Source of the DNA: a virus
DNA length: 42,663 nt
IMG/VR virus record: IMGVR_UViG_3300044631_002537
Coordinates: 1 to 42,663 of that record
Direction: 5' to 3' (one strand)
Both the position numbers and the translations under genes were made by a program. A model generated the notes under the pieces. It was not told where the DNA came from, ran no database searches, and saw nothing but the letters and a program-made list of their open reading frames with translations. Within the stretch, counting starts at the first letter, position 1. Every line of letters starts with the position of its first letter. This document shows positions 39,374 to 42,663 of the stretch, piece after piece.

Positions 39374-40093
39374 ATGCCTTTACCTAAGATTTCTACGCCA
39401 ACATATGAGTTGGAACTTCCCTCAACTGGGGAAACGATTAAATACCGACCATTCCTTGTTAGAGAAGAAAAACTTCTCGTAATCGCACTTGAGAGTGAAG
39501 ATACAAAACAAATTACAAATGCAATTAAAACTGTAATTAAAAGTTGCATAGAAACAAAAAATATCAAAGTAGAATCTTTACCCACTTTTGATATTGAGTA
39601 TTTGTTTTTGAACATTAGAGGAAAATCAGTTGGTGAGGATATTGAAGTTGGAATCATCTGTCCAGATGATGAGGATACTTCAGTTCCAGTTAAAATTAAT
39701 ATTGATGATATTAAGGTCGTTAAAGATCCAGAACATAATAAACAAATTAAAATTGATGATAAGATTACGATGGAAATGAGATATCCATCACTTGAGCAAT
39801 TTATCAAGAGTAATTTTGATTCATCTGCTGGAGATACTATGGAAAAATCTTTTGAACTTGTGGCGGATTGTATTGATAAAGTTTTTACAGAAGATGAAGT
39901 TTGGACTTCTTCAGATGTAACTAAGAAAGAACTAGTTGACTTTATGGACCAAATGAACTCAAGTCAATTTAAAGAAGTTGAAAAGTTCTTTGATACGATG
40001 CCAAAATTATCTCACAAGGTCAAGGTAAAGAATCCAAATACAAAAGTTGAAAGCGAAGTAACGCTGGAGGGACTCTCAAGTTTTTTCGCATAG
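39374..40093 (+). CDS. 26: Baseplate hub/tail assembly protein, gp26 family
   Basis: 239 residues. N-terminus MPLPKISTPTYELELPSTGE, RPFLVREEKLLVIALESED, and a C-terminal helical half (VWTSSDVTKKELVDFMDQMNSSQFKEVEKFFDTMPKL) are characteristic of the T4 baseplate gp26 family (T4_baseplate). A Cys in ICPDDEDTS is conserved near a zinc-ribbon-like loop. The last codons read over a canonical -1 slippery heptamer (40081-40087), so a fused longer product with the next ORF is likely. This and its place before the tape measure suggest a tail assembly chaperone. Confidence 0.85.
   Translation: MPLPKISTPTYELELPSTGETIKYRPFLVREEKLLVIALESEDTKQITNAIKTVIKSCIETKNIKVESLPTFDIEYLFLNIRGKSVGEDIEVGIICPDDEDTSVPVKINIDDIKVVKDPEHNKQIKIDDKITMEMRYPSLEQFIKSNFDSSAGDTMEKSFELVADCIDKVFTEDEVWTSSDVTKKELVDFMDQMNSSQFKEVEKFFDTMPKLSHKVKVKNPNTKVESEVTLEGLSSFFA
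40066..40087 (+). other. Candidate programmed -1 ribosomal frameshift site
   Basis: T_TTT_TTC (40081-40087) in the zero frame of gene 26, two codons before its TAG. A Shine-Dalgarno-like GGAGGG (40066-40071) lies 9 nt upstream, the spacing that stimulates -1 slipping in E. coli dnaX. After slipping, reading continues CGC ATA GCA ATG straight into the next gene with no stop, giving a fusion of about 301 residues. No strong downstream hairpin is seen. Confidence 0.72.
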
Positions 40094-40095
40094 CA

Positions 40096-40278
40096 ATGTC
40101 TCATATGGATCTTGAGAATTATTTTAAACTTAATTTTTCTCTAATGCAGTATCATAAATATTCATTAACTGAGATTGAAAATTTGATTCCTTGGGAAAGA
40201 GACATTTATGTTGAGTTACTCAAGCAGCATATAGACGAAGAAGAAAGAAAACAACAGTCCGCAAATGCCAGCCTCTAA
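40096..40278 (+). CDS. Small gp51-like protein, probably also made as a gp26 fusion
   Basis: 60 residues (MSHMDLENYFKLNFSLMQYHKYSLTEIENLIPWERDIYV...). The motif YHKYSxxEIExLxPWERDIYVxLL fits the short gene following 26 in cyanophages, often called gp51 (baseplate hub assembly catalyst); T4 gp51 is far longer, so the name is tentative. The only Shine-Dalgarno (GGAGGG) is 24 nt upstream, too far for normal initiation, which supports expression by frameshifting. It overlaps the next ATG by 14 nt. Confidence 0.72.
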   Translation: MSHMDLENYFKLNFSLMQYHKYSLTEIENLIPWERDIYVELLKQHIDEEERKQQSANASL

Positions 40279-42663
40279 GACTTCAAAAACAGAATCTATA
40301 GATGAAAGAATTCTTAGGCTGCTTGGTCTTGAGGATGTATTTGACTTAGACTATGACACCTATGCTACTCTGCTCAAAGAGGCATTAGTAAAATATGGTG
40401 TCATAGGTAAACAAAAGATCCCAACTGAAGAGATTGAATTATTAAGAGACGAATTTAAAAAAGTAAAAGGAAAGTCTGGAAGATTTAAAGCAAAGAGTAA
40501 AAAGATTAGTGCAAAGTCTGTAACTAATCTTAATATATTAAAAGAAAAGAAAGTACCAAATACTCCAAAATTGCTTCCAGGAACTGCTGTTAAGAAAGAA
40601 AAGGAAGAAGATAAAAAAGAAGAACCAAAAAAACAAGAACCTAAAAAAGATTCTAAAGATTCTCTTGAAAAATTAGTTTCTTCTATACGCAAGTCAGTAG
40701 ACTCTATTGCTCAGTCAGTAAAAACTCTCAGTAAACTTTTGGATAAAGGTTTACTGGCGGATAAGAGACGTGCTGAAAATGAGAGAAGATCTGAAAAAGA
40801 ACAGGGAATGGAATCCCGCGGGGGTGAAGTTCTTAAGAGTATGGTGAGTGCGGTTGTAAAACCATTCGAAAGTATCTTTGATAAGATCTTTAAGTTTATA
40901 TTTTGGACTCTTCTTGGAAATACTTTCTTTAAATTGTTGGATTGGTTTAATGATCCAAAGAATCAAAAGAAAGTAGGAAGTATTTTTAGATTCTTAAAGG
41001 ATTGGTGGCCTGCAATATTGACTGGATTCTTGGCATTTGCCACACCTTTAGGGGGATTTATCGCAACTATTACAGGTACTCTAATAAGAGGACTGTTTAT
41101 GTTAGCAAGGATTAATCCTGCTTTAACTGCCGCAATTGCTTTATTCAGTGCAGGGGCAGTGATACCAATGCTCTTCCCCAAAACAGTAGATGAGCAAGAA
41201 AGAAAAACAGAAGAAGCACCTGGCACTCCTGAAGAAAAGATTGAGAAGTTAAAGAAGCAAAAAGAAAATCTCAATTGGTTCCAAAAAAATGTTCAGGGAA
41301 TGGGGTCTGAAATTGATGAGCAGATTCATCGACTTGAGACTGGAGAAACAAAATCATATGCAAGTGGTGGTCTCATAGGATCAAAAGATATTTCCTTTAA
41401 AAAAGGAGGTAGAGTAAAAAATAATAGTGGGGTTAGAATTACTGGCGCTGGTCCAGATACTCAATTAATCGCAGCTCAACCTGGAGAGGTTGTAATTAAT
41501 AAGAAGACTGTTGATGCAGTGGGTGCTAAGAATTTACTCGCATTAAACTCTCAGCATGGAGGACCAAATGCAAATAAACCAAAATATGCAGGTAACATAA
41601 GAGCTGCTAGATTTGGCGGAATACTCCAGGCGTTTCATGAAGGTGGAGTAGTTGGGGGAATGAATCAATCTCCAGAAACTGGAGTTAGTTTAAGATCTGG
41701 TGCTCCAGAATCTAGAAGGACATATTCTGGTGGACCAAGATCTGCTGCTGCAACTATAGACAGAACAATAGAGCAGAGAGTAAAAAGAATAGAATCTCAA
41801 TTACAAGTGCAAAAAGCACTTGCATCTGGTACTGGAATTAATATTAAAGGAGCACAACTCGGAACTAATATAGGCACAGGATATGGAGCAAAGTATAAAG
41901 GAAGAGATGCTGTTAAGGTAAAACTTCCACCTGGAGGATCTTATGAAAAGCAAATAACTCTTGCTGGAAAAATATACTATGGAATGAAACAAGGAGATAA
42001 GGTTATCTATGTTGCTCAAGATCACAGAGATAAGAGTGGAGGAGGATTCTTAAAACCAGGAGGATTATTTGGCGGACCTAGAAATTCTGCGAGAATGGAT
42101 TACGCAGAATCAAAGGGTAAATATTATTCATCATCTGATCAAAAGACATATGGAAATTATAATGACGCAGCGGCTGCTAGAAAATCTAGATTAACCTCTT
42201 TGGAATCTCAGCAGAGATTGAATAGATTGACTTGGAGTGATGTTGGTCCAGATATGATGCCAAGAAGATTTTCTGAAGAGAATAGGGCTAGAGGAGAAGA
42301 ATACAATAAGAGAGGTGGATTTTTTGGACAAATGGGAAGATGGAGTCAAAGAGCTTTTGGTGGTCCAGAAGCAAATAGAAGATTAGATGCTCAACAAAAA
42401 GCATCAGAAGCAAGAGCAAAACAAGCAGGGGCTGCAGCAATTGGAAGATATTATTCATCTTCTGATGGTAAATATTATAAAGACTATAATGCTGCGAAAG
42501 CAGCAGCGGATAAGAGAAAAGCAAATCCACCTAAACCTGCGGCAAAACCTGCATACAAACCAGCTGGTGGTGGTATGGGAGGAGGTAGAAGTTCAAAAAA
42601 ACAAGGTGGAGGAATTATAGATATAAATGAAAACACTGGTTATAATATTCCTGGAGAAGGTGC
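40265..42663 (+). CDS. Tape-measure-like/virion structural protein (3' truncated by window)
   Basis: At least 799 residues, open to the right edge. N-terminus (1-130): helical, Lys/Glu-rich. Near residues 210-300: hydrophobic segments (FIFWTLLGNTFFKLLDW, ILTGFLAFATPLGGFIATIT, NPALTAAIALFSAGAVIPML). Then a helical linker and a Gly-rich repetitive part with SYASGGLIGSKD, GPDTQLIAAQPGEVVINKKT and ILQAFHEGGVVGG, motifs common at tape-measure ends. Membrane-like segments and position after gp26/gp51-like genes support a tail tape measure that also enters the host membrane. T4 gp29 is the functional counterpart; identity is inferred. Confidence 0.75.
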   Translation, partial: MPASKTSKTESIDERILRLLGLEDVFDLDYDTYATLLKEALVKYGVIGKQKIPTEEIELLRDEFKKVKGKSGRFKAKSKKISAKSVTNLNILKEKKVPNTPKLLPGTAVKKEKEEDKKEEPKKQEPKKDSKDSLEKLVSSIRKSVDSIAQSVKTLSKLLDKGLLADKRRAENERRSEKEQGMESRGGEVLKSMVSAVVKPFESIFDKIFKFIFWTLLGNTFFKLLDWFNDPKNQKKVGSIFRFLKDWWPAILTGFLAFATPLGGFIATITGTLIRGLFMLARINPALTAAIALFSAGAVIPMLFPKTVDEQERKTEEAPGTPEEKIEKLKKQKENLNWFQKNVQGMGSEIDEQIHRLETGETKSYASGGLIGSKDISFKKGGRVKNNSGVRITGAGPDTQLIAAQPGEVVINKKTVDAVGAKNLLALNSQHGGPNANKPKYAGNIRAARFGGILQAFHEGGVVGGMNQSPETGVSLRSGAPESRRTYSGGPRSAAATIDRTIEQRVKRIESQLQVQKALASGTGINIKGAQLGTNIGTGYGAKYKGRDAVKVKLPPGGSYEKQITLAGKIYYGMKQGDKVIYVAQDHRDKSGGGFLKPGGLFGGPRNSARMDYAESKGKYYSSSDQKTYGNYNDAAAARKSRLTSLESQQRLNRLTWSDVGPDMMPRRFSEENRARGEEYNKRGGFFGQMGRWSQRAFGGPEANRRLDAQQKASEARAKQAGAAAIGRYYSSSDGKYYKDYNAAKAAADKRKANPPKPAAKPAYKPAGGGMGGGRSSKKQGGGIIDINENTGYNIPGEG

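Follow-up and report, generated by a model that had tools for sequence, protein, structure and literature searches.

The gp26-like gene and its 3' junction

The window analysed here, from a T4-like cyanophage, is the whole of an IMG/VR virus fragment of 42,663 bases, and it carries a single copy of a PF12322 gene. This gp26-like ORF (239 aa; 39374-40093, on the plus strand like all features described below) matches PF12322 (T4_baseplate, 1.4e-75) and phrog_150 (5.3e-81), and is predicted to encode a short product of the TAC-N, or lambda gpG-like, kind. It is located between the tail tube gene and a large gene that probably encodes the tape measure protein. Its 3' codons, read directly, are AGT TTT TTC GCA TAG. 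The slippery heptamer T_TTT_TTC occupies positions 40081-40087 in the zero frame, one codon 5' of the stop codon of the short product (TAG, 40091-40093), with a spacer of 3 nt (GCA). A GGAGGG sequence, SD-like and a possible stimulator, lies at 40066-40071, 9 nt 5' of the heptamer. A sequence-only reading of this DNA had already pointed to these elements, and direct inspection bears out the heptamer, its phase and the position of GGAGGG; the distance of 4 nt at which that reading placed TAG is right when counted to the first base of the stop codon.

After a slip of one base backwards, reading would continue as CGC ATA GCA ATG TCT, with CGC at 40087, in a frame that is open to 40278. The predicted slip product, deduced from the sequence, is 301 aa long and runs ...SSFF-RIAMSHMDLENYF... 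across the junction. The -1-frame tail (40087-40278), which we call the T domain and which is annotated as 'gp51' in relatives, includes a 60-aa ORF starting with an ATG (40096-40278), and the open frame leads into this ORF just as the sequence-only reading had it. The ORF matches phrog_634, 'baseplate hub assembly catalyst', in a profile search (5e-28) and corresponds to the C-terminus of T4 gp51. It had been described as lacking a good ribosome site of its own and this is indeed the case, since the ATG at 40096 has no SD match and its predicted duplex amounts to +0.8 kcal/mol, compared to -5.8 for gp26. The next ORF, which probably encodes the tape measure protein, begins without an SD at 40265, shares 14 nt with the tail and continues past the end of the window at 42663.

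The window is AT-rich and contains 125 TTTTTTN sequences on the two strands combined. The heptamer by itself is therefore no proof of frameshifting, and the case is borne by its position, its frame and its conservation.

Conservation of the T run

T_TTT_TTN is present in frame within the last 16 codons of the gene in 173 of the 176 related loci whose junction can be read; its last codon is TTC in 152 of them, TTT in 20 and TTA in one. This conserved heptamer, together with the conserved frame relation, supports the earlier proposal of a -1 frameshift site fusing the gp26-like and gp51-like genes. The carriers include cyanophages, Pseudomonas, Sinorhizobium, Aeromonas, Vibrio KVP40-like, Stenotrophomonas, Delftia and Agrobacterium phages, the most distant of which share about 25-30% protein identity. 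The codon 5' of the Phe pair is AGT, AAT, TCT, GAT, GCT, ACT or CAT, ending in T in every case: the residue varies (S, N, D, A, T, H), the final T of its codon does not. Since the distance from heptamer to stop ranges from 0 to 27 nt among relatives, retention of the T run does not depend on where the stop codon lies.

All of the 40 representatives (<75% nucleotide identity), which were taken from heptamer-bearing loci and so leave the three loci without a heptamer outside the set, have an in-frame X_XXY_YYZ at the slip codon; at other codons of the gene a slippery heptamer is found in about 5% of representatives at most, the overlapping neighbour excepted. A synonymous-codon null puts the probability of finding both a T before the Phe pair and TTT as the first Phe codon at about 10^-23 in the 40 representatives, a figure that assumes independence of sequences that share ancestry. 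Among 50 dereplicated cyanophage genes, codons 237 (TTT) and 238 (TTC) are invariant, no synonymous change having broken the T run in any of them, and the only codon equally fixed elsewhere in the gene is codon 72, also TTT.

Some loci depart from the common form. The Rhizobium phage RHph_I1_18 has T_TTT_TTA as its slip site and reaches the zero-frame stop about 27 nt later. The heptamer is absent at three Vibrio phage loci (SD25, K452 and 207E48.1; L182, L185 and L189), where the junction reads GTTTTTCGCTAATG, CTTTTTGCGTAATG or CTTTTTCGGTAATG and the tail is still in the -1 frame, with a TAATG overlap. This arrangement suggests either reinitiation or a different slip signal in these three phages.

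Comparison with gp26 and gp51 of T4

Both T4 gp26 and T4 gp51 match PF12322 and belong to the same protein family as the window's gene, and only gp51 has the extra C-terminus that matches phrog_634 and is homologous to the window's -1 tail. T4 gp51 is colinear with the predicted frameshifted product across the junction (VFKLLVNPDEIFTFYQINH versus FFRIAMSHMDLENYFKLNF); in T4-like coliphages this fusion is an ordinary protein, gp51. T4 gp26, on the other hand, consists of the N-domain alone and ends at the same FF (RGLKEFFELL, encoded by ...TTC TTT GAG TTA CTA TAA) with the T run lost. No sign of slipping was seen in T4, where gp26 and gp51 each have a complete gene and the two genes are paralogous. 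The short and long forms with a common N-domain, which the sequence predicts here from one gene and a slip, are thus encoded separately in T4, and there are two ways of obtaining this pair of proteins.

The number of PF12322 genes per record follows this division: two in 6/6 T4-like coliphage-type records (one of the six having one gene in two pieces) and a single one in 20/20 frameshift-type or Ackermann-like records searched. The frameshift form is also found in KVP40-like and PX29-like phages, which likewise belong to the Straboviridae. In a tree of the family, gp26 forms one supported group and gp51 another, but the gp51 branch is very long (2.43) and its attachment is not to be trusted, which rules out placing the T4 duplication on the tree. 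The gp51 gene in two pieces is that of a T4-like phage (L094; G006:C1:125062-125666), in which one frame runs into a stop after 120 codons; this is either a sequencing error or a disrupted gene.

The cyanophage 'gp51' is equivalent to T4 gp51's C-terminal tail alone. An apparent N-terminal truncation of the cyanophage protein was noted by Sullivan et al. (2010; PMC3037559), in a text that makes no mention of frameshifting. Both this truncation and the erratic annotation of its start would be accounted for if 'gp51' is the frameshifted tail of gp26.

Candidate stimulators of slipping

The GGAGGG upstream of the heptamer had been put forward as a stimulator. It turns out not to be a conserved element: 20 of the 50 cyanophage genes have GAA instead of GAG at this codon, GAAGGG takes its place in many relatives, and codon choice favours SD-likeness only weakly over synonymous shuffles (mean z -0.89 against 0.10 in the control; significant in 5/40). 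The LEGL peptide context in itself predisposes to the motif. An essential role of GGAGGG was rejected on these grounds, as was a trade-off between SD strength and the downstream hairpin (correlation 0.17).

The RNA 3' of the heptamer is more stable in the representatives than in synonymous shuffles that preserve the -1 peptide (mean z -1.50, standard error 0.25), with p<0.05 in 17 of 38 compared to 0-13% in controls. Close relatives of the window have a hairpin, GGTCC-ATAT-GGACC, starting 10 nt 3' of the heptamer and held by rare codons, Val being GTC in 20/22 cases (background 7%) and Ile ATC in 11/11 (background 15%). The stem covaries: Asp is GAC where Val is present (20/22) and GAT where Ile is present (11/11), with a Fisher value of 4e-7 that ignores relatedness and becomes 9e-7 after dereplication at 90%. 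In the window itself, MSHMDL is encoded with TCT and GAT, which breaks two of the five GGTCC/GGACC pairs. The weak hairpin TCTCA/TGAGA found there 3' of the stop (40099-40117) is no better than synonymous shuffles (z -0.09), so that no selected downstream structure is detected in the window by this measure. As the window lacks the hairpin of its relatives and its GGAGGG is not a conserved element, any local stimulator is a tentative assignment. Other stems occur in more distant clades; at L107, L109, L146, L144 and L133, long-range stems pair the beginning of the tail with later stretches of it (GCTGAATCA, for example, with TGATTCAGC), in contrast to the cyanophage clade and its short hairpin.

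How the tail is reached

The -1 tails are 56-73 aa long in nearly all loci. In 33 of 111 distinct tails, ATG, GTG and TTG are all absent from the first nine post-slip codons and the peptide is still conserved; at L132, L151, L166 and in P-SSM7 no usual start codon is found in the first 20. Judged by this retained peptide, the -1 tail is under coding constraint even where a start codon is missing, and independent initiation is not enough to account for 'gp51'. In P-SSM7, gp51 is annotated as an ORF of 96 nt (L188:2301-2396), and no usual start codon occurs in the tail upstream of this ORF; it is likely, on this arrangement, a misannotated frameshift product.

The reading that best accounts for these observations, to which we give a probability of about 0.9, is that the locus specifies tail assembly chaperones of the lambda G/GT type by -1 frameshifting. 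The gp26-like gene would provide the short, G-like chaperone. On reaching T_TTT_TTC with tRNA-Phe in both the P and A sites, the ribosome would sometimes re-pair one base back, on TTT TTT, bypass TAG and continue in the -1 frame. We infer from the sequence that this slip takes place, at a rate that would make the 301-aa, GT-like long form the minor product. The sequence-only reading had seen the gp26/gp51 pair in the same way, which is supported by the conservation of the frameshift site and by the predicted short and long forms.

A separate small tail protein could instead be made by termination at TAG (40091-40093) and reinitiation at ATG 40096. In the window this ATG is only 2 nt past the stop, several relatives show a TAATG overlap, and the three Vibrio phages without the heptamer have TAATG and a -1-frame tail. 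Restart leaves the fixed T run unexplained, however, and is difficult to reconcile with the 33 tails that retain a conserved peptide with no usual start in their first nine codons; moreover, ATG 40096 has no SD and T4 makes the fused form. We consider it improbable as the main explanation, although, with the ATG so close to the stop, restart could be an additional source of free tail in the window. Slippage of the polymerase rather than of the ribosome, at the run of six T, would yield a mixed mRNA population. Homopolymer runs can indeed make a polymerase slip in AT-rich DNA, but a run of six is short for such an effect, and most loci have just six T followed by C (152/173). The run is, besides, always phased T_TTT_TTN in the zero frame, and downstream RNA structure is under selection in many relatives. 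Polymerase slippage is very improbable. The last alternative is mere coincidence, in which a T run happens to end an AT-rich gene beside an unrelated small ORF and nothing shifts frame. The abundance of TTTTTTN in the window and a possible need of the protein itself for FF would favour coincidence. It is hardly credible in the face of a position-specific conservation that extends down to about 25-30% protein identity, of a preceding codon that ends in T whatever its amino acid, of coding conservation in the -1 frame and of the T4 fusion.

Proposed chaperone function and the gene downstream

With frameshifting as the preferred reading, the 'gp51' tail of the long form would probably bind the tape measure protein encoded next. 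T4 gp51 is required for assembly and is not present in the particle (PMC3004832). The N-domain was modelled with AF2 (pLDDT 86.5) from an alignment of the window and IMG/VR loci only, and in BFVD the model matches baseplate hub proteins from many phages. In a Foldseek search of the PDB, the tail assembly chaperone of HK97 (2ob9) ranks second (prob 0.77, TMt 0.43), with an E-value of 1.1 that is not significant; the likeness of the modelled N-domain to the HK97 fold is suggestive only. A sequence search with T4 gp51 gave no matches among proteins of solved structure.

The ORF after the tail has a weak match to tape-measure profiles in the window (E 0.0026). The corresponding next gene matches at 1.9e-6 in SynMITS9220M01, and in RHph_I1_18 the match is 2.7e-13 for a gene beyond an intervening ORF of 127 aa. 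These profile matches make it plausible that the gene at 40265 encodes the tape measure protein. Hydrolase_2, chitinase (GH19) or VanY domains are present in the gene 3' of the tail at three loci (L223, L230 and L231), and some phages thus have cell-wall-degrading domains at the tape-measure position.

The start at 40265 is inside the end of the tail, as it is in the nearest representatives (L005, L061, L064, L070, L082 and L107), which have overlaps of 4-14 nt and a weak SD or none; in more distant clades the tape-measure start often has an SD. From these start contexts, translation of the tape measure gene might be coupled to that of the slipped frame. A wider proposal, which we regard as doubtful at this stage, combines this with the data on stimulators: behind a near-universal T run the stimulator would change with the lineage, being an SD-like element, a 5-bp hairpin 10 nt past the heptamer or a set of longer stems, and in the window's clade slipping would jointly set the amounts of long chaperone and tape measure protein.

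Relation to known systems and significance

The arrangement resembles gpG/gpGT of lambda in its short product and predicted minor -1 fusion, in the heptamer just 5' of the zero-frame stop, and in its location between the tail tube gene and a large, here probable, tape measure gene. It differs in that the protein is of the PF12322 family and the heptamer is T_TTT_TTY, which is not the slippery heptamer of the lambda chaperone gene. No significant sequence link, and no fold link supported by E-value, was found between the lambda-type proteins and the PF12322 protein. In the Vandenendeviridae and Andersonviridae (phage Adele, PMC12846349), a TAC-N gene with a -1 tail and a T-rich slip signal also adjoins the tape measure gene; the motif there is GTTTTT instead of T_TTT_TTY, and the likeness drawn here is one of arrangement.

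The sequence-only reading took the G/GT idea not to be established for T4-like phages. It had in fact already been proposed, tail chaperone genes of T4-like phages having been identified, according to papers that cite the work, by Vladimirov, Gautam and Davidson (Virology 2022, pmid 34826709). In passages citing that work, PMC10885494 describes T4-like phages in which a short gene is accompanied by a longer, fused one, and PMC12846349 poly-T frameshift signals in T4-like TAC-N genes. The mechanism is therefore known in kind and the present locus is a further member; what may be new is the covariation of the hairpin and how broadly conservation was tested.

If coupling holds, the dose of tape measure protein would also be set by slipping. 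The conserved hairpin of the window's relatives offers a testable stimulator of frameshifting in cyanobacterial hosts. More broadly, one gene with a slip in these phages and two genes in T4 provide an evolutionary contrast at a step of tail assembly.
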